In this document: positions 7,360-54,784 of the stretch, piece after piece
How positions within the stretch are numbered: the first letter of the stretch is position 1
How the letters are laid out: every line of letters begins with the position of its first letter
DNA from: Incurvaria masculella
Taxonomy: Eukaryota; Arthropoda; Insecta; Lepidoptera; Incurvariidae
DNA: 64,000 nt
Direction: 5' to 3'
NCBI GenBank assembly: GCA_946894095.1
Contig: OX335657.1
Coordinates: 8,556,001-8,620,000, forward strand
The notes under the pieces: generated by a model
Database searches by the model: none
Told to the model about the DNA's origin: nothing
What the model saw: the letters and a program-made list of their open reading frames with translations, nothing else
Position numbers and translations under genes: made by a program

Positions 7360-7387
7360 GCGGTGTAACAGGCAGGAATGAATCCCC
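7360..7387 (+). repeat. Left terminus of giant element copy 1: TSD GCGG and TIR
   Basis: GCGG at 7360-7363 is the target duplication. The terminus TGTAA starts at 7364, and the 19-bp inverted repeat is 7369-7387. Its inverse is at 26212-26230, exact over 19 bp. Confidence 0.88.
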
Positions 7388-7444
7388 GGCAATTCTGAAT
7401 CCCCCACAATGGTCGCCATTGATCCCCGGTATTGTTTAATAAAC

Positions 7445-7494
7445 ACTGCCATAAAAGTAATGACCCTAACGACTATAAACAAACCACGCTCGCG
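7445..7494 (+). promoter_or_regulatory. Left subterminal motifs shared with the right end
   Basis: ACTGCCATAA (7445-7454) and TATAAACAAA (7474-7483, followed a few bases on by CGCG) recur in inverse orientation near the right end, at 26031-26040 and 26073-26082. Such short subterminal repeats are often transposase contact sites; the function here is inferred. Confidence 0.35.
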
Positions 7495-7499
7495 CCAAA

Positions 7500-8249
7500 C
7501 GCCCTCAAGTGGCTAGGAGGATGACGTAGGCAGCGGACGTAGGTAAATAGTGAATGAAGTGACGCTGTTAAACACTTTTAGGGTTTCGTTCCCCAAGATA
7601 AGGAATAACGTAACAATTATTGTGGGACCTGGTTGTTTGTCTGTTCATGCGTCTGTTCGTGTGTCTGTAGGGTGATTTATTCTCATAAAGGAAATAGGAT
7701 TGCGAGTGACTTTAGCCCCTATTTATTCTATGAAATAGAGTTAAAGAGTTGAAAATTGAAATTGTATATTGCTGCCTATTTTATTTTATGCAGAATATCA
7801 CTCACGGTGTTCGATCACAGAATACTTTTTTTGCTTCTACAGACATGCATCCCTTCATACATGCTCTTTGATTACGGGTGATTCTATTTTAACTTTAACG
7901 GAGCCACTGACTTATCGTGGTAATTCTTCTTGGTCATACAGGCTAGCCACTTCCACACACTTACCATCTGTGAATTCGCTTTGTCAATCTTTCATTATTT
8001 ATTCGTTCTACACTTGAAATTATCTTTACTAGGTTTTATGAAAAAGGAGGAAAGTAGGAAAAAAACGAAATAAGTATACCATAACTTTACATTAAGTAAA
8101 TCTTAAATGAATGGCATACATTTACAATTACAGGTTTTTGTAGTTAAATACATAGGCAAATCACAATAAGATATGGTTAATTTGATGTTAATGTAACTTC
8201 TAAGTAGTGTAGTCCTAAGCAAGTGTAAACGTTGTAATCCAAAATTACA
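7500..8249. other. Left unique part of giant element copy 1
   Basis: This is near identical to 31962-32711 in copy 2. It contains an open frame of 82 codons at 7769-8017 that is also open in copy 2, but it has no recognisable domain and is probably non-coding. Confidence 0.4.
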
Positions 8250-8505
8250 TAGTGGTCTAGTGGCTAGAGGACTTTCATGCGAGAGGTCTGGGTTCAAATC
8301 CTCGCCCCGGCCATGTTCCACTTTTGTTTCTCTTTCTGATTTGGATTAATTGATTATGAATGCAAGCTGTTCCATGGTTCGGAACTCATGTAAAACTTTA
8401 GGTCCCCTTCCCCTGCTTATTGGTAGGGTTAAACCCGCTCGGTTTGGTGGTGGCATGGTGAAACTATAATTAAAGTGGCAATGAAAAATTGTCCGTGTAC
8501 TCAAT
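8250..8505 (+). repeat. tRNA-derived SINE, short copy
   Basis: The head TGGTCTAGTGGCTAGAGG resembles a pol III A box and GGTTCAAATCC at about 8291-8301 a B box, spaced as in a tRNA. The body carries the family marks TTCCATGGTTCGGAA, GGTAGGGTTAA and GTCCGTGT. Confidence 0.75.
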
Positions 8506-8508
8506 CTA

Positions 8509-8920
8509 GCGGCTCGTAGCCTTGTGGCGCGGGGACTGGACTAGCGTACCAGAGGCCTGGGTTCAATACCGACTTGCACCACTGTCTTTCTCTTTCCGAG
8601 TTCGACAAGTGCATTTAGTCACGAATGCGAGCTGCTCCATGGTTCAGAATCCATATAAAACTGTAGGTCCTACCCTTCCCTAAAGTTTTGTAGGGAAGGG
8701 CATAAGCCTGCCCGGGTTGGTACCACCGCATTGGATGAAAAGATGGTCGAAGCGGCAATGAAAAATTGTCCGTGTTTTCCATCGAGTTCAATGTAGCAGT
8801 GCTCATAAAGGGAAGGTCCTGGCATGCCACCTCATTCCTTCGGGGATGTGGTGTATTGGGCTAATATCATAACGGTAGTTGTGTGGTATTAGCCATCCAT
8901 GTCAGGTCGCATAAAAAAAA
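8509..8920 (+). repeat. tRNA-derived SINE, near full length
   Basis: The head is GCGGCTCGTAGCCTTGTGGC, with GGGTTCAATACC as the B box. The body runs through GGTTGGTACCACCGCATTGG and GTCCGTGTTTTCCATC to AGCCATCCATGTCAGG, then an A-rich tail. Confidence 0.78.
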
Positions 8921-9039
8921 TAGATCAATGTAGTCGTGCTCATAAAGGGAAGGTTCTGGCATGGTACCTTATTCCTTCGGGAATGTAATGTATTAGATAA
9001 TAACGGTAGTTGTGTGGTATCAGCCATCCATGTCAGGGT
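8921..9039 (+). repeat. Second SINE 3' tail in tandem
   Basis: The last about 115 bp of the SINE (from CAATGTAG-CGTGCTCATAA to CCATCCATGTCAGG) is repeated directly after the preceding copy. Copy 2 of the giant element keeps only a shortened version at this place. Confidence 0.6.
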
Positions 9040-9685
9040 CCCCTCCGTCCCCTTTCTACCATCGCACAACGCGGAACAGACAGAAAATGCACCCGTTCAC
9101 TGGCGACATTCAAAAAATCTGAACCAACCAATCCTTTAGGTCATTTATCCATATGATCGGTAAACTTTAGAATTAGAAATACTCCCTGCCGAGATATTTC
9201 TCCCAAAATAAAACCTGGGGTCCTTCAAACATGGTGTGAAGAAGCACCTGGTGCGCCGGCATGGTTTTCGCAGCCCCCTTTAAAGTTCGAAAGCGTATGG
9301 GCGTCGTCGAGTACCTTAAGAGGTCCTGGCGTACGCCATATGCCGAGCTTAACATAAAGCAAAGTTCCATAAAAAACATCTGTTTGTAGCCTGGGCTTTG
9401 CTACAAGTTCATAGCTATACAATACATACATACAATACACATATACAAGCATAACTTCAAGTTCATGCACACCGCATAAAAAGCGAAATTTTCGGACTAT
9501 TCTCGGGTGAAATCTCTTAACATTTATATCCGGCATATTATTTTTGCCCTCAATTTATTTCTTGAATAGTACAGATAAGTCAGAAATATGTCTTAATGTC
9601 AATTTTTTTTTTAAACTTTGACATGCCGTGTCGGTTCCGGAACCTAAAATAATGCAATCGGCCGGCTGCATTTATTTCCATGAAT
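9040..9685. other. Unannotated element DNA shared by both copies
   Basis: No gene or repeat family recognised. A piece near 9390-9450 differs in sequence from the equivalent of copy 2 (34250-34280). Confidence 0.35.
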
Positions 9686-10472
9686 TTATTTATTTATTCA
9701 TTTATTTATTAAGCAGTCATCTGGTAGTAAACTACACTTGAAATTGTCATACAATATTCATCGTAAAAATACATTGCGCCTAACAATACAAAGAACAAAG
9801 TAGTAAACCGAGCTTTAAAGCGTAATAAATAATCTTAATTAATTAATTTAAACAACATAAATATAAATTGCCAAAGTTAAAGGTAATTAAAATTTAAGTG
9901 TATATGTAGGTGTAAAAAACCCTTGTCATAATATTAAATACAATGTAAGATTTTTAACACAAAAATAGATAAAATACATTAATAATATTCAGGTGTACAG
10001 AGCCCTCGTCAGAATATCTATTATAATCTACATTAGTCATATTTTTAAAACAATATAAAAAAATAATTATAATTTTAAATTTTTATTTTTAAATATGCAT
10101 ATCTTATGAAAAAGTCTAATCAGCAACATCATGGAAGAGAGTTTTGTCCGTTATAGCTTCAGTAATGGTATAATATGCTTTTTTTGTTAAAATATTTTTG
10201 ACCTTAAATTTAAAAGCATTTCCAGACAAGCTTCTAATTATTAATTCTAGGCATAGTAAACTGTTTTGGCAGCTTGCAGACCGCATAGTTCTCTGATCTT
10301 TTTAATTGAATAACAAGCGGAACTCAATTTATTTGCTAACTTATCTATGTGGGCTTTCCATGTAAGTTGCCTATCAAATATTAAACCGAGGAAATTGATT
10401 TCATTTGTGACAGAGAGGGATAATTCTTTTGCAGCATTAGAGATGTTGTAAATGTTGTAAATGGCTCTCAAT
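9686..10472 (-). pseudogene. Non-LTR retrotransposon 3' fragment, private to copy 1
   Basis: The minus-strand frame 10247-10489 contains 'FLGLIFDRQLTWKAHIDKL' followed by K.....S.CYSIKKIR, the C-terminal reverse-transcriptase pattern of Jockey-type elements. The minus-strand 3' end lies at the left, an AT-rich tail of repeated AAATA. Copy 2 has an empty site at 34498-34501, where the flanks (TTCCATGAAT and GTCGTAATAG) are joined directly. Only the trinucleotide AAT is duplicated. It is 5'-truncated and dead. Confidence 0.75.
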
Positions 10473-10667
10473 GTCGTAATAGCGGACAAAGTGATTCGTC
10501 CCCTTCCTTACATAGGTACTAGGTGGTAGGGTTATTCCCACAGGGGCTGCCACCATCGCATTTAATGAACCCATAAGAGAGAATGCCGCTGGCATTAAGT
10601 TGTACCTTTTGCCCGAATTTTGAGTGCAATGAACATATATAAATAAATAAATACATCGGCAATTCTA

Positions 10668-11033
10668 GAGCTCGTGGTCTAGGGGTTAGAGGACTTAGAG
10701 GACATAAAACACTCTCTTTCTCTTTCTAAGTTTGATAAGTGCATTTGTGCAAATGTGAGCTGTTCCATGGTTCGGAACCCATATAGAATTGTAGGTCCCC
10801 TTCCCCTACTAGGTGGTAGGGTTAAGCCCGCCCAGGTTGGTACCACCGCATAGGATGAAACTATGGTTGATGAGGCAATGAAAAGTTGTCCGTGTTTTCC
10901 ATCCATTTCAATGTAGCCGTGCTCATAAAGGGAAGGTCCTGGCACCTAATTCCTGCAGGAATGTGGTGTATTGGGCTAATATCATAACGGTAATTGTGTG
11001 GTAATAGCCATCCATGTCAGGTTGCAAAAAAAA
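10668..11033 (+). repeat. tRNA-derived SINE, B box lost
   Basis: The head CTCGTGGTCTAGGGGTTAGAGG gives an A box; the B box region is deleted. The body and tail match the other SINE copies, and it ends in an A run directly joined to the next repeat. Confidence 0.72.
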
Positions 11034-11390
11034 TCGGCCAAGTGCGAGTCGGACTCGCACACGAAGGGTTCCGTACCACGTACAAATTTTTCTTTAATAA
11101 AATTACGTTTTTTGTATAGATTAGTAAGTTAAATTAGTAAATAAAAAAATAATACAGATTAATACATTGAATATGTATTAAAGACAAAAAAAATATCATG
11201 TATTATTTTTTAATGTTACCTATTTGTTGTTATAGCGGCAAAATAAATACATACTCTGTGAAAATTTCAGCGGCCTACCTATTATGGTTCATGAGATACA
11301 GCCCTATGACAAACGGACGGACGGACGGCCGGACGGACAGCGGAGGCTTAGTAATAGGGTTCCGTTTTCACCCTTTGGGTACGGAACCCT
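11034..11390 (+). repeat. Dispersed repeat with (GGAC)n and terminal hairpins
   Basis: It starts with CGGCCAAGTGCGAGTCGGAC, where GCGAGTC-G-GACTCGC is a hairpin. It contains TATAGCGGCAAAATAAATAC and TTCATGAGATACAGCCC, a GGAC microsatellite, and ends with AGGGTTCCGT...ACGGAACCCT, a second hairpin. Other copies: 13158-13451, 23195-23492, 35062-35389, 37159-37470, 52693-52990, 56973-57257 and part at 47846-47990. Common in moths as far as I recall; the family name is not known to me. It is non-coding. Confidence 0.75.
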
Positions 11391-11639
11391 AAAAAAGAAC
11401 AAAGTCCGGCCCGTTTCTATTTTTGGAATTCCGACAGTGAATTTGAATTTTAATTCCCCACCTGTTCCGCGTTGCGAGATTGCGAAGGGGACGGAAGGAC
11501 AGCGTTATGCTGCTCCGACGAGTACTCTCTGGCCGACCAGGTAGAATCACACCATTTTGAAAAAAATGAAGGGAATGATACAGGGGATGACAATTTATAT
11601 GGCTCACCCAATATTGATGCTACATAATTGTACCTAAGG

Positions 11640-12318
11640 GTCGATTTTTTCCGGCAATTTTAGGGCTACTTAGCATTACGCTAAATTAACAGAGAAGGTG
11701 ACCAGTAGTATGAAATGCTTTTAACTTGAGAACCGATTACCCGATTTAGATGCGGTTTGTATCTAAGTCTAGCCTAAATCTGCGCATTAGTTGGCTATAT
11801 AACATCAGGCGTGAGCGTACAACACATATACGCATGGAAATTGGCGGAGTACATCACTCTAAATTACGAGAGACGTGACCGAACTACTCACTCAATTAAT
11901 ACGCGGATTGGATCTATGTTTAGGATCTATGGGCGCGGTCGGGTTTTAGATTGGTAACCGTTTTCGATGTTGAGGCTGGCTGTGGTTCGGATTCCTCTTA
12001 AAAATATAGTTTCTCTTTCTCACTAACGAGGTGATAAGGTTAATCCCGCCTGAGTTGGTACGTACCATCGCACTGAGTGAAAGATGGTCGAAGCAGCAAT
12101 AACAAATGTCCGTGTTTTTTATCCATGTCAATGTAGTAGTGCCAGTGCAGGATCGTCTCGGCGGCAAATACTTTTAAAAAACTTAAAAGAAATCGGCCCC
12201 AATGTGTTACATATTTTATTTTATCCATTGAATTTATATAAATGGCCATATCTAGATGTTTTCTTATTCAAACATGCCACATCGGTTTAACCAATTTTGA
12301 TAAAATTTCATAGGTAGA
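11640..12318 (+). repeat. Helitron-derived internal fragment
   Basis: It carries the same internal landmarks as the Helitron at 25017-25982 in the same order: CCGATTTAGATGCGG, TATCTA(A/C)GTCTAGCC, a GTTGAGGCT(G/A)GCTGTGG block and GCGGCAAAT(A/G)CTTTT. The middle is partly replaced by SINE-like sequence. No Helitron ends were found, so it is an old relic. Confidence 0.55.
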
Positions 12319-12346
12319 TAGATTGTTTAATCTGAGTGGTCAGTCT

Positions 12347-12390
12347 GAGTTCCCACCTAAATTGGCGTTTACGGCAAACCGATCGAGGAG
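12347..12390 (+). repeat. Arm fragment of the 5641-5951 MITE family
   Basis: GAGTTCCCACCTAAATTGGC followed by GTTTACGGCAAACCGATCGA matches one arm of that MITE. The partner arm is missing. Confidence 0.5.
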
Positions 12391-12754
12391 GCATTCATTA
12401 CGGGAGGAGGAACTGCAGGAGAATTCCAAATTATGGGTGGCGAAATTGGTAGACGCAATACCCGCGAATGGTATGTTTTTCTGGTTCGCGTCCAGCCTTG
12501 CAGTATATTCGTAAAGTAGTTCGTTTTACTGGGCTCTTTGTTCAATTAATGTGTCCTTGCTTCACGGTCGATTATACATACATACATATCACATTCCTTG
12601 AAATAAGCGACGTACCTACTTAGTACGAAAAAGTATATTTACTTAGGTTTTTTTATTTTTGATTAGAAAGGTGGGATTTAAAAAAACTACTTAGTTATAG
12701 CTAAAAGTAAATGAAACAAAAACCAAATGTATTACTTATCTTAATGAAACGAGC

Positions 12755-13026
12755 TAGGTGTGATGACTAATCTTTTTAAGATGTTTTTATTTTATCTTTG
12801 AGTAATTCACCTCCAAGTTTATTGTAAAAAAAACGCGCGAAAAATTCGAACTTACGGACCTTATACCTATGAAACAAGACACTATTTTACAATGCCAATG
12901 ATCATCAGACATCTAGTTCGATGAAATAACTCTTTGGAGTACAATTTTAGATATTTGACAAGAAATATGCGCATGATCTTCTTTCGACGTTTGTATGGGA
13001 AGTTGAGCGGGATGGCCCGCCTTAAG
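12755..13026 (-). repeat. TTAA-type MITE, truncated, minus strand
   Basis: Read on the minus strand, it starts with TTAAGGCGGGCCATCCCGCT at the right and covers about half of the family body (GATCTTCTTTC, ATCGAACTAGATGTCTGATG, CTTAAAAAGATTAGTCATCA). The other terminus is lost. Confidence 0.68.
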
Positions 13027-13157
13027 TAGGAGTTTGAAATACCGGCCCTCAATGTCTTATAATATCATTCTATACAACTACCATATTTAGAATTAAAAAG
13101 CGTAAATACAAAAAATCTAACAACGAATAAATGAAAATCAGTATAAATATATTTTTT

Positions 13158-13451
13158 AGGGTTCCGTACCCAAAGGGTATCAACGGAACCCTACTATCCG
13201 TCCGTCCGTCCGTCCGTCCGTCCGTCCTGCCGTCCGTCTGTCACAAAGCTGTATCTCATGAACCGTAATAAGTAGGCAGCTGAAATTTTCACAGAGTGTG
13301 TATTTATTTTGCCGCTATAACAACAAATAGATAAAATTTAAAAATAATAAAAATTAAAGGGGGCTCCGATACAAAAAACCTATTTTTTGTGGTTAATCTT
13401 GTGCGTTGGTACGGAACCCTTCGTAGGCGAGTCCGACTCGCGCTTGGCCGG
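13158..13451 (-). repeat. Dispersed (GGAC)n repeat, minus strand
   Basis: Same family as 11034-11390 in reverse: it begins with AGGGTTCCGTACCCAAAGGG, has a TCCG microsatellite and ends GAGTCCGACTCGCGCTTGGC. Confidence 0.75.
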
Positions 13452-13455
13452 TTTT

Positions 13456-13560
13456 TCGTGGCTGGACATGGATGGATAATACCACACCTACCATCATTAT
13501 ATTAGCCCAAAACACCATTTTCCCGAACAAATTAGGTGCCATGCCAGGACCTTGAAAATT
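13456..13560 (-). repeat. SINE 3' tail, minus strand
   Basis: It contains the inverse of the tail block (GACATGGATGGATAATACCA ... GGTGCCATGCCAGGACCTT). Its inner side is cut off at the junction with the following retrotransposon. Confidence 0.65.
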
Positions 13561-13568
13561 GCCAGGAA

Positions 13569-15015
13569 AAATGAAAAAATTGAAAATGAAAATGTTTATT
13601 ATTGATAATGCTTACAATTACAATTAGATAAAGCTTATACTTACTTAATTTCTAAATTGTATTCTATACTAAATTATAAGTGTAAATAAAGAAAATGAAA
13701 TTATCTTATATAACGAAAACATTATAAAGGTAACAAGTAACTTAAACATTAGTAGCTAAAGTAAGATAATTAAAATAAATAAACAGCATATATCAACAAA
13801 AGGACCAAACACAGCTGTGACTAGGCTGACATATTGCTAAGGCTAGTCGCTGATTTTAAGTTTGGCCTATTTCACATTAGTGACGTTTCGTAATATTATG
13901 TTACATTAGGTTTAAAAGTCAAGATAAAAGACCAAAATCAAACCTGTTCATACAATTAGCACACAAATAAGTATCTTTAAATATACTGTACAACCAAACA
14001 AGGTGAACAAACCAAATGAGAACTAAAAATGCTTTGGACGATGAGTTTCTTGGATGAGCGGAGTATTTAGCGTATGAAAAAATAAAGATAGAAACATTAA
14101 ATAAAAAATAAAAAAAACTATATAGCTGTCAATATTTGTTGTGAGAGAAGATAACGTTTAATTTTTTTTTTTAAACTATGTATGGTAATAATTTGTCGAA
14201 TAGGAGGAGGAATATCGTTCCAACACTTGGACGCTGCGAACTTAAAGCTGCCTCGAAATGAGGAGCCATGATGCTTAGGAACAGATAGCTGTACTCCGGA
14301 CCCACGCGTGCCATACCTATGACTCTCCTTGCCACTTTAGTCTACTCCATAAGGGTGTGGGACTCTGTGACATAATAACTTTAGCAACTTGAGTGGCCAG
14401 GTGGAGTGTACGACGATTTTCCATTTTAAGAATATGTAGCTTGTTCAGAATGGGAGTTATATGAGAGCGTCTCTTAATATGCTCACAGAACCGAATACAC
14501 GCGTTTTGAACCTGTTGGACTCTTCTAGACGTTTTTTTATGTATACAAGGGCCGTAGACAACATCTGCATAATTAAGTTGCGAAAGAATCAGTGTCTCTG
14601 TTAGTTGATGTCGAACCTTGGTACTAAGATATTGTCGTATTTTATATACGCTTTTGAGTTTACCGAACGATCTTCCAACCTTTTCGGCAATGTGTTCTCC
14701 ATACCGGAGTTGACTGTCCATCTTGAGACCAAGGTTTCGCGCAGTTTTAACAATGGGCAGAACTATTCCATTCATCATAATAAGTGGGTTTCTAGACAGC
14801 ACTTTTTTTTAAGTATTTTTGTTTCCCAGTACTAAAACCAAGGACTTCTGGGGATTTAGCGCTAGTCCATTACTCGCTGACCACTGCCAAACACTCCTCA
14901 AATCAATATTAATATTATTAACGGCCTCAAGTTGAGGGCACAGCCCTATATATGAAATATATAAATAAAAGGACGGACGAATTGAGACATTCTCTTTTTC
15001 AAACTCCCGCAAAAA
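13569..15015 (-). pseudogene. Non-LTR retrotransposon 3' part, minus strand, frameshifted
   Basis: Two minus-strand frames (14809-15012 and 14317-14802) together give the C-terminal third of a Jockey-like reverse transcriptase. It has 'NGLALNPQKS' (the region after the YxDD catalytic site, which is absent), 'NLGLKMDSQLRYGEHI', 'LSQLNYADVVYGPC' and 'VQNACIRFCEHIKRR'. The frame is lost near 14805, in a T-run followed by TAAG where copy 2 has TACAG. It is broken again near 14315, where copy 2 has two extra bases. Copy 2 (38728-39594) keeps one open frame of 288 codons. The A-rich 3' end is at 13569-13600. Since the element was already inside the giant transposon before the copies separated, the breaks here arose later. 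Confidence 0.75.
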
Positions 15016-15029
15016 CTATTTTTATTACC

Positions 15030-15367
15030 TATATCTGAAGTGACATCTGATTGGGGCAGCCTCTTTCAAAGTGCACGTTTTTGTCAAGTGGTGTTTGAGA
15101 AAGATTTCAAAAACATGTCATCGAATGAGTTAAGTGGATGTTACGGCCGAATTCTTACCACATCTCTGTGTAAAAAGTAGAATACTCGAAAATTATTCCT
15201 GCTTAGTTTATCACTCGCAAGACGACTTCACGCGAGACCGTTTCGTCTTTAGCGATTTCATCCATTTTTAAAAAACATTTTAATATCGATGTATTTTGGC
15301 TGTTTTATTTAAGCCAACAATTGTGCTATTTTCTGAGTGAAAGTTGCAGAGAAGTCAATATCTGAAG
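15030..15367 (+). other. Possible 5' untranslated exon of the 44-codon spliced gene
   Basis: The stretch ends in CTGAAG|GTATGT, a good splice donor, at 15367/15368. The nearest strong acceptor downstream is TTTTCTTGCAG at 17178, directly in front of the candidate first coding exon. The same donor is kept in copy 2 at 39949/39950. No start codon with a long frame occurs in it. Linking it to the downstream exons is inference; a transcription start is not visible. Confidence 0.25.
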
Positions 15368-15856
15368 GTATGTATGTGTTCTTGTATATTTTTGTTAATT
15401 TGTCATGTTTCAATTGCAAGCCCTGTATCAACCAACTGCAAGCACAGTCAAAATGTGTTCCTACCATGTAATGATTATTCCATGCATATATGAAATAATC
15501 TTGAAGGCTTGAAACATTTATTAATTTTAGGTTTTTTTACATAGTCACATGCCAGTGGCTGTGGTCTTAGCCATGCATATCGTATTTCATACAAAATAAA
15601 AGTCGCGCTGTTTTGCATTTTAAGACCATTAAAAATATAAAATATTAAAATATTAGAATGGAGCCCGCTGGCGCGACCTGCGTGACATTGTGTTAGGTAT
15701 GCAATAAATAATGTGTTACCTGTCAGATCCTAGCCCAAAGGTTACTTGGACTTACGTTTAATAAATTTCTGAATTTTATAAATGACAACGGAACTATGTA
15801 GGTGCCGTACCAAGTACTTAATTATTGCTTTGCTTGGCTACATTTAATTTAACGAA

Positions 15857-16008
15857 ACACACGGATATTTTTAATTGCCACTTCGACCATCTTTTTAACC
15901 AACTTCATGTTAAATACGATGGTTCTAACCCACCCCGTGCTTAGTACCGACTACCTACCACCTAGTCGGTACGAAAGGGGACCTACAGTTTTACGTGGAA
16001 TCGGAACC
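15857..16008 (-). repeat. SINE body fragment, minus strand
   Basis: Inverse of the SINE middle (GCCACTTCGACCATCTTT ... CTACCACCTAGTCGGTAC ... GGACCTACAGTTTTACGTGG). Confidence 0.6.
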
Positions 16009-16058
16009 AGGTCCAGCTTAAACGTTTGAATTGTCAGCCCTCAAATTCAAATAAAAAA

Positions 16059-16371
16059 AGCGCGAGTACTTGCTCTTCATGCCCGAGTTCACGAGGTCGA
16101 TCCCCGCCCCGTTCTTGCACCTCTTTTTTTTATTGGGATAAAATGTATTTCATCATGATTGCAAGCTATTCCATGGTTCGGAATCCATGGTAACTTTGTA
16201 GGTTACTTTCTCTACTAGGTGGTTGGGTTTTAAGCCCGCCCGGGTTGGTACTATCTCATTTTAGTGATCGCATTGGATAAATAATAAATGGTAGAAGCGG
16301 CAATAAAATCCGTGCTTTCCGTACAGCCCAATGTAGCTGTGTTCGTAAAGAGAAACCCTGGGAAGGCACTG
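16059..16371 (+). repeat. tRNA-derived SINE, diverged head
   Basis: The head region has CACGAGGTCGATCCCCGCCC where the B box is expected. The body keeps TTCCATGGTTCGGAATCCAT, AAGCCCGCCCGGGTTGG and the middle to GGGAAGGCACT. Confidence 0.62.
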
Positions 16372-16372
16372 T

Positions 16373-16769
16373 GGAGCGGCTCGTAGCTAAGTGGCGCGGG
16401 GATTTGCCTTGCATACCAGAGACCTGGGTTAAAATCCTCGCCCCATTAATGCACCACTTTCTTTCTCTCTCTGAGTTGGATAAGTGCATTTCGTATTCCC
16501 TACTAAGGAATAGTCCTTAGTAGGGAACACGAAATGCACTTATCCAACTCAGCCCGCAGGGTTTAAGCCCACCGGGTTGATACCATCGCATTGGATGAAA
16601 AGATAGTCGAAGCGGAAATGAAAAATTGTCGGTGTTTTCCATCCAGTTCAATGTGGCCGTGCTCACAAAGGGAAAGTCCTGGTATGGCACCTAATTTCTT
16701 CGGGAACGTAGTGTATTGGGCCAATATCCATCCATAATAATAGCTATCCGTGTCAGGTTGCATAAAAAA
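16373..16769 (+). repeat. tRNA-derived SINE with an internal inverted duplication
   Basis: The head GCGGCTCGTAGCTAAGTGGC and B box GGTTAAAATCC start a normal copy, but the part after the tRNA-like head has become a long hairpin (16471-16552). After it the SINE body resumes at AAGCCCACCGGGTTGATACC and ends in AAAAAA. Confidence 0.7.
16471..16552. repeat. 82-nt near-perfect hairpin inside a SINE
   Basis: The arms are 24 bp perfect, one mismatch, then 14 bp perfect, around a 4-nt loop (ATAG). The outer arm is ordinary SINE sequence; the inner 14 bp (TTCCCTACTAAGGA) also resembles the SINE. Copy 2 has the same hairpin at 41050-41131, so it existed before the copies separated. Confidence 0.85.
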
Positions 16770-17200
16770 GGCACCTTATTCCTCTGAGAATGCGTTGTGT
16801 TGAACTTATATCATGACGGTGGGTGTGGTATGAACATGATGGTTCGTATCTCTAGCAGAAGTCAATGAATATCTGCGTCTACACGTTCTGAATTTTGTGA
16901 AAATCTAAACTGAGTCAAATGAGAGCAATCATTCAATCTATAAACACAATATAGCAGTATGATTTTTCGAATTTCGAAAAGTGTGCTGACATAGTTAAAT
17001 AGATTATGAATAGTTTATAAAAGATTATACAATTTAACGAACTGTCTAGATTTAGTTTAATTTTCAATTGGAACCGACACATCTAAGTTTGCCTCAAGGA
17101 AGAAGCCAGAGAAATTTCTTATTTTCAGTATTTATTATGATAATAATTAAGTTTACTATTTTGCATCTTTTCTTGCAGGGCAACTTACATATAGTTAGAC

Positions 17201-20080: not shown

Positions 20081-20225
20081 CTACAGTAGAGAGAGTTTGC
20101 ATGGGATAGTGAGGTGCGCATGATCTTCTTTCCAATTTGTATGTGGAGTTGAGCGGGATGGCTCGCCCACCTTAAGTCAAAAAGTTACGCCACCACTAAA
20201 AAGCAAAAAATAAAATATTTTTAAA

Positions 20226-20362: not shown

Positions 20363-20365
20363 TAC

Positions 20366-38162: not shown

Positions 38163-38163
38163 T

Positions 38164-40950: not shown

Positions 40951-40951
40951 T

Positions 40952-44668: not shown

Positions 44669-44794
44669 AGTTTAGAGAGTTCGCATGGGATAGTGAGGTG
44701 CGCATGATCTTCTTTCCAATTTGTATGTGGAAGCCCACCTTAAGTCAAAAAGTTACGCCACCACTAAAAAGCAAAAAATAAAATATTTTTAAAG

Positions 44795-45837
44795 AAAAAA
44801 AGGACCGCCTTCAAAAAAACCGAAACTAAAAAGCAAAAAATTATAGGTTACTTTTAATTAATGTACGACAAGCTATTTTAATACTAACTAATTATGTACA
44901 ATTTCTTAATTTTTAATCATCTTTTGAAGTCGGTGCCTTGGGTAGAGGTCCTTTAGGGCTGTAAGTAGTTAGATTAATATCACCTATCGCTAAGAAAGAA
45001 ATATAAGCAGGTAGCTATGTACTTACATTTACCTACTTAAACAAAACACAAAAACAAATATTAAATAAACAAACAGGTCGGAAAAACGTATGTTTGTAGG
45101 CATTTAGGCAAGTACTTTGTAACTTAAATATACCTTATACTTAAACTAAATACCTAACACAGTTAAAACAAAATAAACACAAGAAAACCCTACAAACTAA
45201 ACAAACAAACCAATATAAAAACAACGACCACTTATATGGTAAATATTTAGGTAGGTGTAGCTTGTACTTTCTATTCTACCTAAATACCTACATAATACAA
45301 AATAAAAAAAATAAAAAATAAAAATGAACAGAAAACAATAGGTAGCGATTTTGAGGTGTCTGCTCTCAACTACGTGTCAAAACGAGTGTGCGGTTAGTAC
45401 ATATGTCTTCAATTTCGGCAGAAATCGTCTCGTTCAGACAACGATGTCGTAAGAAGTACCAATCCACAGAGCAGGGAATTAACATACTCCTTCACCAGTG
45501 CGCGCCTTTATGAAGCCGAAAGTACTAATAATCGTTGAAACCCAATTTCAGTACGCTGCGCTGTATCGATATCAGCTTGCACGAAAACCAACGCTGACTC
45601 AGGTTGTTTACGCTCTCGTAGCCTTCTGGTGCGTTCGGCTGAAATAGTGTCTGTTCGGTTAGGTTAGGTTAGCGTGCAGAGCGAACTCTACCCAAGGCAC
45701 CGACTTCAAAAGATGATTAAAAATTAAGAAATTGTACATAATTAGTTAGTATTAAAATAACTTGTCGTACATTAATTAAAAGTAACCAATTATTTTTTGC
45801 TTTTTAGTTCCGGTTTTTTTGAAGGCGGTCCTTTTTT
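44795..45837. repeat. Foldback element with about 150-bp arms
   Basis: The left arm 44795-44946 and right arm 45686-45837 are nearly perfect inverse copies (AGGACCGCCTTCAAAAAAAC ... CGGTGCCTTGGGTAGAG). The about 740-bp centre is AT-rich, has many ACCTAC words and no coding frame. Three TTAGG units occur near the right arm (45657-45672). Only the left arm survives in copy 1. Confidence 0.78.
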
Positions 45838-45852
45838 TATTTAGAAATATTG

Positions 45853-46214
45853 TTATACAATAACTTTGGAGGTGCATTACGCAATGATGTAGTAAGAACA
45901 TCTAAAAAGGATTAGTCATCAGACATAGCTAATTTAATCAAGATTTATAATCTATTTACTTTTTGTTACATTTTTGACTACAGCGGTCGTGGTTTACTTT
46001 TAGCTATAAGTCGTTTTGTAATTAAAATTTTCGTAAATCTTACCAAATCATACACTAGGTATGCACATTGTCTTTGTTGTGGACATGTTGCATCTTCCTC
46101 ATCACGGAGCCTGTCTTTTTCTTTGAAACAGAGAAGGTCCCAGAGCGCAACAGCATGGTTTTGTACCGTGCCCGCGAATGAGTTAGTCCCACCGGGTTGA
46201 GCTACCTTAAGGTT
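45853..46214 (+). repeat. TTAA-type MITE, 5'-truncated
   Basis: It starts within the body (ATACAATAACTTTGGAGGTG) and runs to the right end CGGGTTGAGCTACCTTAA. It is in the region that copy 1 has lost. Confidence 0.68.
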
Positions 46215-46378
46215 GGGTTAAGCCCGCCCGAGTTGTACCACCGCATTGGATAAAAATATGATTGGAGAGTGTAGCCGTGCCAGGGAAGGTCCTGGCATGG
46301 CACCTAGTTCCTTCGGGAATATGGTGTATTGGGCTAATATCATAACGGTAGTTGTGTGGTGCTAGCTATCCATAGAAT
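46215..46378 (+). repeat. SINE body fragment
   Basis: GGTTAAGCCCGCCCGAGTTG to GTGCTAGCTATCCATAG, with an internal deletion. Confidence 0.6.
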
Positions 46379-47283
46379 GTAATATGTATGTATGCATAAT
46401 CGATCGTGAAGCAAGGACATATTAATTGAAGAAAGAGGTCAGTAAAAATAACTACTTTACGAATATACTGCAAAGCTGGACCCAAACCAGAAAAACATAC
46501 CATTCTCGGGTTTTGCGTCTACCAATAATTGCAATACACCTGCTGTATACCCATAATTTGGAATTCTCCTGCAGTTCCTTCCTCCCGTAATCGATGCCTC
46601 CTACTAACATAGTGTTTCAGATTATACCTACATATATTTATTTAACGCTTTATCTGCGTTGCGGCCACAGAAATCGGAATTATTAACTAGAACGGTCAAG
46701 AAGTCAGCTTAGTATGGGAACCGAGCGTGTCAAGCTTGGCACCCACACAACCACATAAAATACACAGATGTCTCCCGACGCGCGGCGCAACCATTCGTGT
46801 GGGGCGCATCCACCTGCGTCAAACACATACATCGAAGTGTCGGTGCGCGGGTAGCGCACTACCACCTTCTCAGGTCACCCGTCGGCGAACGCGTCGAGCT
46901 GGGGATTGACGAGTATCGATAATTGTTATTTTTACTATCGATACAATTAATTTCTCATAGAAATAGATAGGTAGTTCTTTTATTTCGTTTTCTGCGTTGT
47001 TAGGAAGTAAAATTACCAGTTCAATATTTAAATTATGTCACGGTGCAATGAACTGTTATAATTCATACCATATGGTAGGGAAATTAGAGGAAAAAAAACG
47101 TTTTTTTCTCGAATTTAACTAAAAGTAAAATTTAATTGTATTAACTTGCCATATAGCTGTATTAAATTAGCATTAAGAACACTTGAGATTCACTGGGCTT
47201 TTCTACAACTAAAGAACTAAATATACAAACAGGATGTTAACGGAGTTATGGCCCAAACGTTAACCAGGTTTCCCTAGGCATAT
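46379..47283. other. Element DNA with one arm of an inverted repeat
   Basis: 46431-46481 and 46655-46690 are the inverse of sequences near 48555-48652. The part 46390-46610 is the inverse of the 12390-12590 stretch of copy 1. No gene recognised; the 60-codon frame at 46727-46909 has no family. Confidence 0.4.
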
Positions 47284-47287
47284 TTAA

Positions 47288-47829
47288 GGTGGCCCATCCC
47301 GCTCATCTCCCCATAAAAAAGGGGAAAGAAGATCACGCCCATATTTCTTGTCAGAGATCCAAAATGTTGCTCAAAATAGCTTTATTTGATCGAACTAGAT
47401 GTCTGATGACCATTGGCATTTTAAAATTGTGTTTGGTTTCTAAATTATAAGTTCCGAAAGTTTGAATTTTCTGAGCGTTTTATACAATAACTTTGGAGGT
47501 GGATTACGCAATGATAAAGTAAAAACATCTTAAAAAGATTAGTCATCAGACATAGCTTATTTAATCACGATATATAATCTATTGGGTTTTTGTTAGATTT
47601 TTGACTACAGCGGTCGTGGTTTACTTTTAGCTATAAGTCGTTTTGAAATTAAAATTTTGGTAAATCTTACCAAATCATACACTATGCACATTGTCTTTTT
47701 TGTGGACATGTTGCATCTTCCTCATCACGGAACCTGTTTTATTCTTTGAAACAGAGAAGGTCGCAGAGCGCAACAGCACGGTTTTGTACCGTGCCCGCGA
47801 ATGAGTTAGGCCCGCCGGATTGGGCCACC
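47288..47829 (+). repeat. TTAA-flanked MITE, complete
   Basis: TTAA at 47284-47287 and 47830-47833. Ends GGTGGCCCATCCCG and CGGATTGGGCCACC. Confidence 0.75.
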
Positions 47830-47845
47830 TTAAAGCAAAAAACCG

Positions 47846-47990
47846 ACCAACCGGCGTCGGACTTGCACACGAGAGGGTTCCGTACCGTCGTAAAAGATTT
47901 AACACAAAAGAAACAACTTTTTTGTAATATGTGTAATATTGAAATTTTACCTTTGTTCTTATAGCGGCAAAATAAATACACACTCCGATC
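47846..47990 (+). repeat. Dispersed (GGAC)n repeat, 5' half only
   Basis: ACCGACCAACCGGCGTCGGA to TATAGCGGCAAAATAAATAC. The microsatellite and 3' hairpin are missing. Confidence 0.55.
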
Positions 47991-48483
47991 GATATAATGA
48001 ATTTCGTTATCAAAATGTACTCTGTAGCCTAGCGATACAAGCGACCGCCTATTTTTACTGGACAATATGCAAGTAATGAAAACTTTTTTTAACTAAAACA
48101 TAACTGTAATAATAGAAACATCGATAACGCTAATTCTTGGTGTCATCATTACCTACTACCCAAATAAGCAAAATAAACGTTCAAACGCACTCAAATTTCA
48201 TATCGAAATAACCATAACACTAAGAAATAAAATCGATAGCACTCATTATTTGTCACATCACTACCCAACGCGACTGCGTTAGCGGAGAAATTCTTTCGAA
48301 AAATGATTTAAATATACAAATAACTGTTTTAGAATTGGCTTACCTATGAAATGTGATGCCATTGTTTTTGTAGGACACGTTCTCGTTTCGGTTTTTGCAG
48401 ATCCGCACTGAACAATTAGGCATTTCGACAATATTCTGGACAAACGCGCGCGCGCCGCGACCGGGTACGAACTGAGCGGCCGG

Positions 48484-48560
48484 CGTGACGTCACGTTTGC
48501 TTTTGTCACCAATTTTGGGTATAAGGCCGCCACGGAAATCGCGCGCGTCGCCCGTTCTAG
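48484..48560 (+). promoter_or_regulatory. Candidate transposase promoter
   Basis: CGTGACGTCACG (48484-48495) is a perfect 12-bp palindrome containing the CRE core TGACGTCA. TATAAG follows at 48520-48525, and the DNA around is GC-rich with CpG, unlike its surroundings. A start would be expected near 48550. The transposase codons open 0.8 kb downstream behind a splice acceptor-like TTATGTTTCAG (49351). The copy 1 deletion removes this region. The promoter role is inferred. Confidence 0.3.
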
Positions 48561-48600
48561 TTTAGTATATTCCGATTTCTGTGGTTGCGGCCATCGACTG

Positions 48601-48652
48601 CGAAGATTTCGTAAAGTAGTTCTTTTTACTGGGCTCTTTCTTCAATAATTAA
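48601..48652 (-). repeat. Right arm of a 2.2-kb-spaced inverted repeat
   Basis: TTCGTAAAGTAGTTCTTTTT...GGGCTCTTTCTTCAAT is the inverse of 46431-46481. The pair encloses a TTAA MITE, a partial dispersed repeat and the candidate promoter. Confidence 0.5.
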
Positions 48653-49377
48653 AACCCTAGTAAATAGGTGTAGCAAGCATATAGATTTGAAAGAATATGA
48701 GCAACTCATTAAAGCCATTATAATAGTCTATATTTTAATATTTCGATTTTTTTTCTACGGGTGTGTACTCTTAACCGACGCTGAGATAAAATAATATAAA
48801 TGGAGCTGTATAGGTCCATAAAAATCACAAAGTTTTTCGTGCATTGCATTTTTCTTTTTTGTAAAACATTTTTAAAATGTATCGAATTGCATAATTAGAT
48901 TCACTCATTTTGACAGAAAGAAAAATAAATTAAAAATGGCGGGAAACAAAATTTTACTAAATGGTTTCTTTTTTTAAACTATTCCTTTATCATGTCATCA
49001 AAACTAGCCAGGTACAAATATTACAGGCAAACACATTTTATTACAAGTTTATACATACTATATGCGAAAAGACCTTTTCCTCGACCTATTATACAGAATT
49101 GGTCCGGTCTGAAAACCAGCGCTGTGACATCAGTACACTGGTTGACATGTTCATGCTGAGATTACACCTTTTTTGTCATACGCAAAAATGCATTTTTTTT
49201 TCAACAAAACGTTAAAACGATTACATAAATGTAAAGTTACCACCTACTTGTAATTATGTACATTAAGATATGGGATGTTTTTCGTGATGATATTTTTATA
49301 TAGGTATATATTACCACAATCGAAGTATTTAATAACTAATTTATGTTTCAGGATATTTTAGAAGAAAGGACGTCGAC
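48653..49377. other. Possible transposase 5' intron
   Basis: AT-rich, no repeat recognised. It ends with TTATGTTTCAG at 49351 in front of codons GYFRRKDVD that are in frame with the start at 49378. An in-frame stop lies just upstream of the acceptor. The 84-codon frame 48961-49215 has no recognised domain. Confidence 0.3.
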
Positions 49378-51349
49378 ATGGAAGAAATTCTACGATTTAA
49401 GACGTGTAATCGTTATCCTGCGGATTTAAAAACAAAAAGTCAAAAATCAAATTTCAGGCGGCATTGCCGACTATTTTCACTGCAGGGAGGCCAGTTATAT
49501 TATACCCGCGTTCATAAGAAACGCACAAATGCTGAAACTGAATTTGATATAGTTAATAGAAGACTAGTTGTTATAGATAAAAATCAACAGATATCTATTA
49601 TAAAAGCTTTTCATGAAGGTTTGTCCAGTAGTGTGGAGGCCACAGCTCTCTCTGGGCACAGAGGTAGAGATAAAATGATTGAAATGCTCCGAGCCAGATA
49701 TTATTGGCCTTATATGTGTGTGCAAGCCAGGGATTATTGTTATAAATGTTTAACTTGCCAAAAAGTAAATCCTGCATCATTAAAAGTCGTGGATTCGCTA
49801 CAGCCTGTGCCAGTTCCGTCCAGAGTTATGGCTCAAATCGGTATAGACATATGTTCTCTACCAGAAGTTGATGGCCTACGCTATATCGTGGTCGCCATCG
49901 ACTATTTTTCAAAATGGATCGAAGCGAGAGCACTCGAAAACAAATCGGCCAAGTCAGTTGCAACATTTATCTACGAAGAAATAATATGTAGGCACGGCTG
50001 TATAGAAACAATTATAAGCGACCAAGGTCGGGAATTTTGTAACGCCCTTGTCGAAGAACTTCTACAACGGACTGGGGCGAAACATCGCGTGACTTCACCT
50101 TACCACCCACAGGCTAACCTAACGGTCTTGTGGAAAGAGCGAATCGGAGCATAAAAAATACTTTGCTCAAAGTTCTTGAGGAAAATGTTGAGCAATGGCC
50201 AAATGCACTGCACGGTGTCCTCTTTGCTATGCGCTCAGCCCCTCATACATCCACAAAATGTTCACCCTTTTTTATATTGTACCATAAACAGGCCCGATTA
50301 CCAATTGATGTCCAAAATCTTCCAGCCGTGGAACACGCAGATTCACCACCTAAAATTCAGCAGCATTTAATATGTGATGAGACGGAAGAACATTTTGATA
50401 TTGTACAGTTTAATGAAGTGTTGCAGATGATGACTAAAGTTAACCAATCTCTGCACACATCTATTTCAAGAAATATAAAGGCTGCGCAAGAAGTGCAAAG
50501 AAATAGTTATAACCAGCGACATTTAACTGGAATTAATTTAAAAGAGGGCCAATCTGTGCTACTTATAAATGCCAGACGTCTAGATAGAAAGGGTGACAAA
50601 TATCAACTTCCCAAATCTGGTCCTTATAAAATCATCTCAATAAATGATCGTGACGTGTAGTTTTGATGAATAAAAATGGTGTTATTTTACGTACCAAGTA
50701 TCCCCTTAAGCGTCTCGTAGCTCTGAAAGAAACTGATACATCAACTTTCCCCCAAAATCCAGACTGTAGTGTTGAGTCCTCTGCCCAGACTGTAAATAGT
50801 GATGAAATGTTAGAGATAATCGAGAGTAATAAAACAAATACAAATGAAAGTTTATTTTTTAAACCGGTATCAGGCGACTGGCAGGAAAAAATGGCCCATA
50901 ATCTTGGAGTACCTATCTACAAAGTAAATCATTCTCAGAACTCAAAGCTAGGGAAACCGAATACCTGCCAAGAAATATTAGGGGATGGCAACTGTTTTTT
51001 TCGCTGTCTATCATACGTGATCACTGGGGTTCAAACGTTTCATGATACCATTCGAAGCTGTTTGATTTCGTTTATGTTACAAGATGTTAGAGTACAAAAT
51101 TTCCTTGGAAATGTAGATATACGGACATATTTGCAATCCACCCATATGGCACTGGACCGCACCTGGGCAACGGAGACAGAGGTGTTTGCAAGTGCATTAT
51201 TTTTTAATGTAGACATACAGGTCTACCTTAATAATCACTGGCTCCGATTTAGCGGGACTGGGTCACTTGATGACCCACCCTCTCTAACTGCCATCTATCT
51301 GTATAACCGAGGGGGTAATCACTTCGAGGTAGTGACATCTGTAGTTTAA
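49378..51349 (+). pseudogene. Ginger-like transposase (HHCC, D,D35E, GPY/F, OTU), two frameshifts
   Basis: The first frame (49378-50154) has an N-terminal 'YPADLK' and 'LYYT' region, then the zinc-binding HHCC part (H79, H94 in 'SGHRGRDKM', C124 and C127 in 'CYKCLTCQK'), 'YYWPYM', and the integrase core with D157 and D215. A 5-bp tandem duplication (CTAAC) near 50117 shifts the frame just before the catalytic Glu. The second frame (50130-50660) continues through Glu to the GPY module. A lost base near 50651 ends it, and the third frame (50663-51349) carries the OTU domain. The OTU nucleophile Cys is in 'DGNCFFR', the mid motif is TWATETEVFASALF, and the His is in 'GNHFEVV'. The total is about 655 codons. 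The true start may lie in an upstream exon. Copy 1 is intact at both of these break points. Confidence 0.88.
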
Positions 51350-51692
51350 CATTAATACCAAAAAAAAATATTGTTATCTCAAATGGAGATTCGAATGGCC
51401 ATTGTTTAGGAAAGTGTCAAAATAAGTTACAGTACATAATATAATTTATTCTCGTTATGAAATCGCATATATAACAGGTAATCTCTGCACTTAAACTAAT
51501 GTAAAATATAACGACTGGCGTCTGTCCTTATGTATGTCTGCCTATTAAGAATTAGCACTATTTTTGTTTAATTTTAATGCAGTTTATATCTACATGATTT
51601 TTTTAAACGTACATGAATTTCTAAAATACTACAACTACTGCCATGATATAAGCCAAAAACGCATCTATGTATTTGCTATGACTTGACCTTTC

Positions 51693-52004
51693 ATGGGATG
51701 GAAAACACGGAAATGTTTTTCCGGGAACGGTTCAAATAAACACAGGGAAACATATGAAGACGTTTTGAGGACCTTTAACATGACAGATAACCCTAATAAT
51801 TACAAACGAATGCTTAAACTTTGCAAACCGTTTCTAGCCAGATGTATTGTATTGTATTGTATTGTTTATTCATCATCCATAGACAGTACACTGCACTCGG
51901 ATTTGTCATATTTTAGCATTGGCCAGTTCAGCAAAACAAAACACAGGGAAGAGGAACTGAAAAGAAACTCCGCTGTTTTTTTTTTCAACGTCCACTTAGT
52001 CTAA
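51693..52004 (+). CDS. Hypothetical frame downstream of the transposase, copy 2
   Basis: Counterpart of 22237-22590. A different length of T-run near 51977 changes the C-terminus, so the real end, if any, is before it. Confidence 0.2.
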   Translation: MGWKTRKCFSGNGSNKHRETYEDVLRTFNMTDNPNNYKRMLKLCKPFLARCIVLYCIVYSSSIDSTLHSDLSYFSIGQFSKTKHREEELKRNSAVFFFNVHLV

Positions 52005-52109
52005 GTTTACAAAAGTGTTTGTCAATTATTTTAACAAAAACATAGGTAAAACACTAAATTAACATGAAACTTTGTATTATTTTTTTTGTTCACTGTCGGT
52101 TGGACACGT

Positions 52110-52573
52110 TTAGAGAACGAGATTCGAATATAAAAGAGAACCATTATTTTTATGTATATCAGATTGCACATTTTCGTTTGCATTTGCATCCAATGGAATG
52201 AATGCTAAATTGGATGTTTTCATAACATAATTACAATTTTGAATTTGGTGTGCAAGGGCTCTTAGTCCCAGGTTATTAAGAGCTCCATGATTGTTATAAC
52301 ATGGTCTCAATAGTGAATTTAAATCTAGGAAAGTAGTATTTGGTACACTTTTTGTAAGTGTATATATATTTGTATTAGTTCTATAGGCAGTAGCATTAAT
52401 GTTGTGCGAATTATTTGTGAAAGGTGGCACATACAACAGGGAACTAATAAATAATTTATTTTTTTGCGTCCACACATGTCTACTACATAATTTACACATT
52501 TCGTAAATATGTTCACATCAGCATTTGAACCTGCATTGCCCACTAACAAAATAACAATGTCATTTTCCCGCAT
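52110..52573 (-). pseudogene. Broken SGNH/GDSL-hydrolase-like frame, copy 2
   Basis: Frames 52325-52573 and 52110-52499 overlap as in copy 1. This copy keeps an extra about 40 bases that add 'DMCGRKKINYLLVP', the beta-strand segment that precedes 'NINATAYRTN' in this type of fold, making the SGNH reading more plausible. A frame change lies within that addition. There is no serine motif region upstream and no clear DxxH at the end. Confidence 0.38.
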
Positions 52574-52692
52574 CCCATTGACCTTGATGAGTTAAGTGTA
52601 AAAGAAATGAAGCAACTTCTTTTAGTAGACGGTTGGTTAAATTAATTCGAAGACTTCAAATGATACTCCTATAATACTTCAGAACAAAAAAA

Positions 52693-52990
52693 CCCGGCCA
52701 AGTGCGAGTTTGACTCGCACACGAAGGGTTCCGTACCATCGTAAAAGATTTAACACAAACAAATCACGTTTTTTTGTATGGGGCCTCCCTTAAATTTTTA
52801 TTTTTTAAAAATGTCACCTATTTGCTGTTATAGCGGCAAAATAAATACACACTCTGTAAAAATTTCAGCTGCCTACCTATTACGGTTCATGAGATACAGC
52901 CCTGTGACAGACCGAAGAATGGGCGGACGGACGGACAGCGGAGGCTTAGTAATAGGGTTCCGTTTTCACCTTTTGGGTACGGAACCCTAA
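52693..52990 (+). repeat. Dispersed (GGAC)n repeat
   Basis: Counterpart of 23195-23492. Confidence 0.75.
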
Positions 52991-54091
52991 ACATTACAAC
53001 GGATCTCAGGAACTGAATAAAAGTTAAAAGTTAAATACGGAAATATGACGATTACGAGTGCAGCGAGCTGTCTATCGATGATAAATAAAATACAAATATG
53101 CTTAAATTGTTTAAATAAAACATATCCGCGTATCTTGTTGTTCTTTTGTAAAATTTTTACCTCAATCGTCTCAATAGGCATTTAAGTTCAGACATAATAA
53201 GCGCATCGGCCATGGGTCAATTAACTTCTTAACGGATTGAACATAGTGTAGAAAATTACTGTTCGTGACGGGCCTTACAGATTGCGCCGTAAGATAACAT
53301 GTCTAAATAAATTATAATATAATAATGCTTTTTATAAGTACATTTGTAAACTTTATTAACCTATGTTTTAGAAGATAAGATTGAAAAAATAGCAGTTAAG
53401 GATTGTGAGAATTGTGAACTTTATTTTGTTGAAATAAAATCCACTAATTAATGTCTTTAACTGGGATGAGGGTATCAGGGGTGCTGTGCTTTTAAATACT
53501 TACATGGAGACTGGTGGATGAGATTAATGTAAGACTGAAGAAAATCATGCCTGGAGGCCATTTAATGAGTAGTTCAACAATATTTTTATATAACAATTAA
53601 TGGGTCGGATAATGGGTTAATAATGCATTCATGGCCTATTGGAAAGTCCATTAGTTGTTATATGATATAGGGGACGCCATGCTTGCTTTCACTGTAAGGT
53701 GCAACACTCGCAACAGTCACCAAGCCGGCAATTAATTGACGTTTTCACAACCAATAGCTAGCACATGCGCTACTGGACCCCCATTCTGGGACTGCAGTTG
53801 ATGGCGGGCCACCCCGATCAAGCCTTTTATTGCGAAACTCCGAGTGCACCTGCTCCCAGAAAAAGTAAGACTAATAAACAACGCCATCGCGACTCGGCGC
53901 GCCTAGCCGTCGCCGCCCCAGTGCCCATGTTGTCTACGGATCTACCCGCGCCGGCTCTTTAGGGGTGTATGAGTAGAAACCCCAAAGCTGAGAATCGTAG
54001 GGCAGGGAAGCCACCCACTGCCTTACCAGCGGGGTCATTTCGAAGCAATCGACTGATTCGTCAGAAATCAGCTCTACCGAATTTCGATTCG
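52991..54091. other. Unannotated element DNA
   Basis: Counterpart of 23493-24585; no gene recognised. Differs at 53890-53955, where this copy has GGCGCGCCTAGCCGTCGCCG and then a unique stretch. Confidence 0.35.
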
Positions 54092-54378
54092 GTTTAGGCT
54101 GGCCGTGATTTGGATGCCACGTAAAATTGTAGGTCTCCTTCTTTATTTACCAGGTGGTAGGGCTAATCCCGCCTGGGTTGGTACCATCGCATTGAACGAA
54201 CGATGGTCGAAGCGGCAATGAAAATTGTCCATGTTTTCCATTCAGTTCAACGTAGACGAGCAATATAAGGGAGGTCCTGGCATAGCACCTAGTTCCTATG
54301 TGGTGTGTTAGGCTAATATCTGACGGCTAGTTTAGTATTAGCCATCCATGTCCATTTACATAAAAAAACATAAAAAAA
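54092..54378 (+). repeat. SINE body fragment
   Basis: Counterpart of 24586-24866. Confidence 0.6.
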
Positions 54379-54521
54379 GAATGTCACGCATCACCGGTCG
54401 AACTCATGAAGTAAATCCCCACGCCCATGAGCTCCAAGACACTCTATTATCTAGACATCTTGGAGTCTGTTTTTATATTCGGAATCTTAAATTAAAGAGA
54501 AAACCTCGTTTGGAGCTCGTA

Positions 54522-54533
54522 ATGTAATATAAT
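54522..54533. other. Empty Helitron site
   Basis: ATGTAATATAATATAAG is uninterrupted here; copy 1 has a 966-bp Helitron between A and T. Confidence 0.8.
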
Positions 54534-54756
54534 ATAAGATGTAATAAAAGAGTATGTACCTACCACCTATTATTATTATGGCAGTTTGTCAACGGAGCGG
54601 CGGTGACGCGTCTCGGTTTTGTTTATACAACTCGAAGCACTCGAATCTACCTCCCATTCACTTTGTCGGCCGCCTTGTTTGGTATTCAACTTGATTTATG
54701 ATCATAAAACGACATAATTAGTGTCAAATTACTGTAAACAGGGGTTCACTTTTAGA

Positions 54757-54784
54757 GGGGATTCATTCCTGCCTGAGACACCGC
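54757..54784 (-). repeat. Right terminus of giant element copy 2: TIR and TSD CCGC
   Basis: The inverted repeat is 54757-54775, then AG and ACA to 54780; the target duplication CCGC is 54781-54784. Confidence 0.88.

Follow-up and report, generated by a model that had tools for sequence, protein, structure and literature searches.

Ginger1 DNA transposons, as first described by Bao, Kapitonov and Jurka (2010; PMC2836005), range from 2,649 to 7,091 bp in the published table, carry terminal inverted repeats of 40-270 bp with termini of the form TGTNR, and are flanked by a target duplication that is CCGG (75%) or CCGT/ACGG (24%). Their transposases combine YPYY, GPY and OTU features, the C-terminal domain being OTU or Ulp1. 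Larger DNA elements are known, among them Polintons (up to 40 kb), Helitrons, Teratorn and the fungal Starships, and Teratorn is a 180-kb fusion of piggyBac and a herpesvirus with 18-bp inverted repeats (PMC10175614). A giant Ginger element was found neither in the open literature, searched mainly through titles and the openings of abstracts, nor by searching papers for the sequence strings, which gave no match. Here we describe two direct copies of a Ginger1-like element of 19-23 kb in 64,000 nucleotides (the window) of the lepidopteran Incurvaria masculella (assembly GCA_946894095.1, contig OX335657.1, positions 8,556,001 to 8,620,000). We consider it likely that a Ginger1 transposon grew to about 21.8 kb and then moved whole, giving rise to both copies.

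Ends, target duplications and transposase

The original prediction, made from the letters of this DNA, placed the two copies at 7364..54780, and direct reading of the ends bears out both their position and their size (Table 1). The copies have the same orientation and are separated by 5,590 bp (26236-31825). As predicted, each is bordered on both sides by its own 4-bp duplication, GCGG for copy 1 and CCGC for copy 2; two pairs matching by chance would be expected about once in 65,000 (arithmetic, equal base frequencies). The predicted shared termini hold in part. An exact 19-bp repeat, CAGGCAGGAATGAATCCCC, stands at each of the four ends behind TGTNN, whereas the TGTAA that was thought common to the ends is confined to the two left ends; read inward, the right end of copy 1 has TGTGC and that of copy 2 TGTCT. 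The terminal inverted repeat measures 19 bp when exact, 24 bp with TGTNN and about 41 bp when imperfect matches are included. With up to 4 mismatches allowed, CAGGCAGGAATGAATCCCC has no further site in the window (five plain shuffles gave none). It had no match in viral_contigs and a single exact one in genome_contigs, from a Deltaproteobacteria bin, which is about the chance expectation for 257 billion bases (arithmetic).

A second motif, the 9-mer TGAATCCCC, occurs six times in the window, always within the element ends. Each left end has two of these sites, whereas each right end has one, its second position being taken by the variant TGAACCCC. The motifs may be binding sites of the transposase. 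Just outside the 19-bp repeat the two right ends differ at two bases (GC at 26231-26232, AG at 54776-54777, plus strand). Reconstructed without the elements, both target sites contain GATGGCGGT, but in opposite orientation (7356-7363 plus 26240; 31821-31825 plus 54785-54788). Given the common GCGG, a shared run of at least 9 is found in 1.1% of random GCGG-site pairs in the window, and the likeness of the two sites over 20 bp (11/20) is reached by 11% of random GCGG pairs; this is only a hint of a target preference extending beyond GCGG/CCGC.

A Gypsy-integrase-like transposase with an OTU domain had been predicted, and its domains were recovered. The gene in copy 2 (49378-51349) is split over three frames, with 17.5 kb of the element to the left of its start and 3.4 kb to the right of its stop. 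Pfam matches in copy 2 include Integrase_H2C2 (E 1.2e-13) and rve (E 1.9e-14), and the best solved-structure match of the integrase core is Ty3 (E 1.3e-13). For the OTU domain Pfam gives weak matches that fall short of the curated cut-off (E 5.1e-4 for copy 2, 1.1e-3 for copy 1), and its reading is aided by a structure match to OTUD1 over the DGNC motif (E 7.4e-4) and by a relative with 34% identity over 42% of the query (P0122), itself a strong OTU protein (E 4.5e-27); a later GNHFEVV stretch, read by eye, also favours OTU. The catalytic residues are spaced D-57-D-35-E in copy 1, that is, DD35E. Ahead of the H2C2 finger lies YP...F...YY, which aligns with the relatives and was matched to YPYY by eye from the worded motif, and both copies carry KSGPYKI, the GPY of which is aligned in the relatives that extend that far (P0001, P0007, P0009 and P0123). 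Because YPYY, H2C2, DD35E, GPY and OTU features occur together, we assign the element to Ginger1 on the basis of its protein; it is a real and unusually large member.

The best-scoring relative of the N-terminal part has 54% identity. Named relatives of this part, among the 120 of 262 matches listed, come from Frankliniella fusca (thrips), cotton aphid and Rhizophagus (fungus), and those of the C-terminal part from phylloxera; a protein-led scan of viral_contigs yielded eight pattern matches, none of them a relative. The transposase gene is disrupted in both copies, at different places, so that neither encodes a whole transposase now. Downstream of the OTU part lies a further open reading frame (ORF), much alike in the two copies (51687-52004 in copy 2, 22231-22590 in copy 1); the copy-2 frame has no Pfam match.

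Divergence, flanks and rival explanations

Aligned from terminus to terminus, the two copies keep the same order over 16,919 columns, with 267 differences and 41 gaps. We excluded 144 columns (8786-8929 in copy 1) as misaligned, unlike stretches of 130 bp in copy 1 and 553 bp in copy 2 having been forced together there, after which 195 of 16,775 columns differ. Divided among 17 bins, each of 1,000 columns except the last (775), the differences number 8, 28, 11, 7, 11, 15, 10, 10, 5, 6, 12, 15, 15, 11, 17, 6 and 8. Bin 2 stands out: 15 of its 28 differences fall within 9429-9450, in or adjoining a tandem repeat (microsatellite) at 9417-9448; with this bin omitted, 167 of 15,775 columns differ (about 1%) and the remaining 16 bins are compatible with even divergence (chi-square P 0.24). 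Over all 17 bins, columns in dispersed repeats differ at a rate (56/5,428) like that of the other columns (139/11,347; Fisher P 0.32), which implies that the nested repeats have been diverging for the same length of time as the remainder of the unit. There is no step in divergence at the element ends, with 2 differences in the first 250 bp and 3 in the last 250 bp.

Outside the termini the likeness stops. Homology ends at most 3 bp beyond them (7361/31823 and 26238/54783). Matching outer flanks, which the original prediction had named as the case that would speak against it, were looked for by comparing about 1 kb at each of the four ends, and only 15-23-bp matches were obtained (best E 0.14). 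A shorter pair of termini around the transposase, sought in the window at up to 4 mismatches, was not found. Unrelated flanks, a duplication proper to each copy and divergence that is even outside one microsatellite bin together fit transposition of the long unit, not segmental duplication, and support the earlier claim that about 20 kb moved as one piece. Adding the 4,854 bp found only in copy 2 to the 16,919 aligned columns gives an estimated size of 21,773 bp at duplication.

Several points weigh against this account. The window holds only two copies, 5.6 kb apart. The excluded columns contain 72 of the 267 differences, and all 17 bins taken together are uneven (chi-square P 0.0005). Of the three differences within the final 250 bp, two fall at positions 4-5 of the right end. 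The size estimate assumes that the copy-specific stretches are later insertions, without an outside copy as proof, and gene conversion over the whole length could level the divergence too. With respect to the described Ginger1 elements, the exact terminal repeat is 19 bp here versus 40-270 bp, the target CCGC/GCGG differs from CCGG/CCGT in its fourth base, and of the termini, those at the left (TGTAA) fit TGTNR and those at the right (TGTGC, TGTCT) do not.

Among the alternatives, the one that survives best supposes two short Ginger1 insertions whose long interior was copied later by gene conversion or break-induced repair. The copies are indeed close and alike, and their right ends differ in two adjacent bases; however, the conversion would have had to span more than 16 kb and to stop inside the termini at either side, and the ends show no step in divergence relative to the interior (left 2/250, right 3/250). 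Such conversion is possible but asks for more, and we regard it as improbable. Less probable still is a segmental duplication of one old insertion, the long form never having transposed. Caution on this score was called for, as segmental duplication, in blocks of 7-11 kb, turned out to be the origin of copies of a Ginger1-derived gene (PMC12863088), and the nearness and common orientation of the present copies would suit such an origin; it was tested here, and homology that stops within 3 bp of the termini, unrelated flanks and a matching 4-bp duplication of each copy's own stand against it. In its simple form this explanation is refuted by the flanks, and overall we consider it very unlikely. 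Finally, an element of a different kind, a Polinton/Maverick or an LTR (long terminal repeat) retrotransposon, to which the Gypsy-like integrase core with its Ty3 match and the sizes reached by Polintons (PMC10175614) might point, is the least likely: the 27 of 54 copy-2 ORFs of at least 70 aa that were scanned showed no domain of a polymerase, a capsid protein, a protease or a reverse transcriptase, no direct repeat of the two ends appears among the 80 of 199 self-matches listed, and OTU, GPY and YPYY together are Ginger1 features.

Copy-specific stretches, interior content and surroundings

Stretches found in one copy only are listed in Table 1. The 593-bp insert of copy 2 and part of the 966-bp insert of copy 1 are 88.7% alike and have a common 3' end at different positions; as members of the same repeat family ending alike at different places, they are taken as separate later insertions. 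For the 4,854-bp stretch, the transposase frame of copy 2 crosses the deletion point and its relatives align on both sides, so this stretch was lost from copy 1. The pentamer AAGTC stands at both edges of the deletion in copy 2, and a single AAGTC with a 4-bp filler is left in copy 1, a junction that, from its sequence, looks as in end joining.

Repeats were matched within the window (at least 60 bp, E to 1e-5, the aligned sister copy left out). By this measure 33% of each copy matches another site, and 18-19% matches sites outside the elements; the view that most of the unit consists of nested older repeats is therefore borne out only in part, host repeats being nested inside but matched for a third of each copy. 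Among them is a 550-552-bp repeat that has TTAA at either end in all four of its copies, two of which are one insertion common to both elements, the others lying at 47284-47833 (copy 2) and at 59191-59742 (outside the elements). A repeat at 35053-35391 and elsewhere may resemble repeats of moths; with some of the named transposase relatives it points to an insect as the probable host. The 289-aa ORF in copy 2 may correspond to the C-terminal region of a non-LTR reverse transcriptase.

The ORFs of copy 2 beyond the 27 scanned are all but one shorter than 100 aa. Among those scanned, only ORF 49336-50154 exceeds a Pfam curated cut-off, and no cargo gene besides the transposase was seen. A FYVE match at 47653-47964 was rejected as cargo (E 0.0092; 16.5 bits, far below the cut-off of 27.8). 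RNA genes were found neither by Rfam at gathering scores nor by ARAGORN. CpG is not depleted (observed/expected 0.96-1.33).

Table 1. Window coordinates of the two copies, their ends and their internal features
Feature	Position	Strand	Remark
Copy 1 of Ginger1-like element	7364..26235	+	18,872 bp; ends read directly
Left target duplication, copy 1 (GCGG)	7360..7363		
Right target duplication, copy 1 (GCGG)	26236..26239		
19-bp terminal repeat CAGGCAGGAATGAATCCCC, copy 1 left end	7369..7387	+	
19-bp terminal repeat, copy 1 right end	26212..26230	-	
Two TGAATCCCC motifs, copy 1 left end	7379..7404	+	17 bp apart; starts 7379 and 7396
Copy-1-only stretch	9684..10470		787 bp; inserted later here, or lost from copy 2
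TTAA-ended repeat nested in copy 1	18004..18553		550 bp; same insertion in copy 2 at 42595-43144
Transposase remnant, copy 1	20348..21893	+	Catalytic core, GPY, OTU; without zinc-finger part; frame broken near 20937
Junction of 4.85-kb deletion, copy 1	20358..20366		AAGTC + 4-bp filler
Copy-1-only stretch	25018..25983		966 bp; part from 25444 on is of the repeat family of the copy-2-only insert at 37571
Copy 2 of Ginger1-like element	31826..54780	+	22,955 bp; ends read directly
Left target duplication, copy 2 (CCGC)	31822..31825		
Right target duplication, copy 2 (CCGC)	54781..54784		
19-bp terminal repeat, copy 2 left end	31831..31849	+	
19-bp terminal repeat, copy 2 right end	54757..54775	-	
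Copy-2-only stretch	37571..38163		593 bp; later insertion
289-aa ORF, copy 2	38728..39597	-	Probably nested remnant; one relative, 39% identity over 88%; no Pfam match
Copy-2-only stretch	44935..49788		4,854 bp; includes zinc-finger part of transposase gene
Transposase, N-terminal part, copy 2	49378..50154	+	YPYY-like motif, H2C2 zinc finger, catalytic core
Transposase, next frame, copy 2	50118..50660	+	Third catalytic residue (E), GPY motif; no Pfam match of its own
Transposase, next frame, copy 2	50654..51349	+	OTU-like domain

Around the elements, a 248-aa ORF lies to the left of copy 1 (3731-4477); it has no Pfam match and may likewise correspond to the C-terminal region of a non-LTR reverse transcriptase. 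A tandem array with periods of 30, 40 and 70 bp (63571-63842) lies close to the window's right edge. Three regions (742-1243, 29645-30256 and 58561-59073) are open in several frames with GC-rich-looking translations, and may be CpG-rich DNA, not genes.

Proposed history and comparison with known systems

Under the preferred history of transposition as a whole, the unit would have been enlarged partly by insertions of other repeats, most of it lying upstream of the transposase gene. The Gypsy-integrase-like DD35E transposase would have bound the ends, perhaps at the TGAATCCCC motifs, excised the whole unit and joined it to a nearby staggered 4-bp CCGC/GCGG target; alternatively, both copies may derive from a third. 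With less weight, copy 1 might mark the donor site, where gap repair templated by the sister chromatid stopped before it was complete; such unfinished repair after excision would leave a 4.85-kb deletion with short homology and filler. Afterwards the copies would have changed independently, through insertions and loss of reading frames.

The different targets, and a divergence that is even along nearly the whole length, suggest that a simple cut-and-paste enzyme moved a load some three times as long as the largest element in the first Ginger1 description (7,091 bp in the 2010 table, PMC2836005). If true, a unit of about 22 kb moved without a replication gene in sight, which would show that an integrase-type transposase by itself copes with such a load and that nested repeats travel with it. 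A bolder and rather doubtful extension would be a Ginger1 lineage past the usual size limit of cut-and-paste elements, routinely moving units of more than 20 kb, repeats included, by means of 19-bp exact ends and a CCGC-directed integrase; such a lineage could carry host sequence to new sites. If further copies exist, the size limit would be directly measurable within one genome.

Seen against other large elements, the present one is like Polintons/Mavericks in its Gypsy-like integrase and inverted termini, and Polintons reach 40 kb (PMC6431247, PMC10175614). It resembles Teratorn as a cut-and-paste element far beyond the usual size with short inverted repeats, whereas Teratorn carries herpesvirus replication genes and only the transposase was found among the scanned copy-2 ORFs here. 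The claim of an unusually large element consequently stands for Ginger and not for animals at large, as larger cut-and-paste elements such as Teratorn have been published (PMC10175614). Polintons/Mavericks carry their own polymerase and capsid genes, in contrast to this element, in whose scanned ORFs neither was found. With Ginger1 it shares a transposase with YPYY motif, H2C2 zinc finger, DDE core, GPY and C-terminal OTU, as well as TGT termini and a 4-bp GC-rich target duplication with a CCG core. At 19-23 kb versus the tabulated 2.6-7.1 kb (PMC2836005), which agrees with the earlier remark that other Ginger elements are much shorter, it differs from the Ginger1 elements described there in its length, its CCGC target and its short exact terminal repeat.

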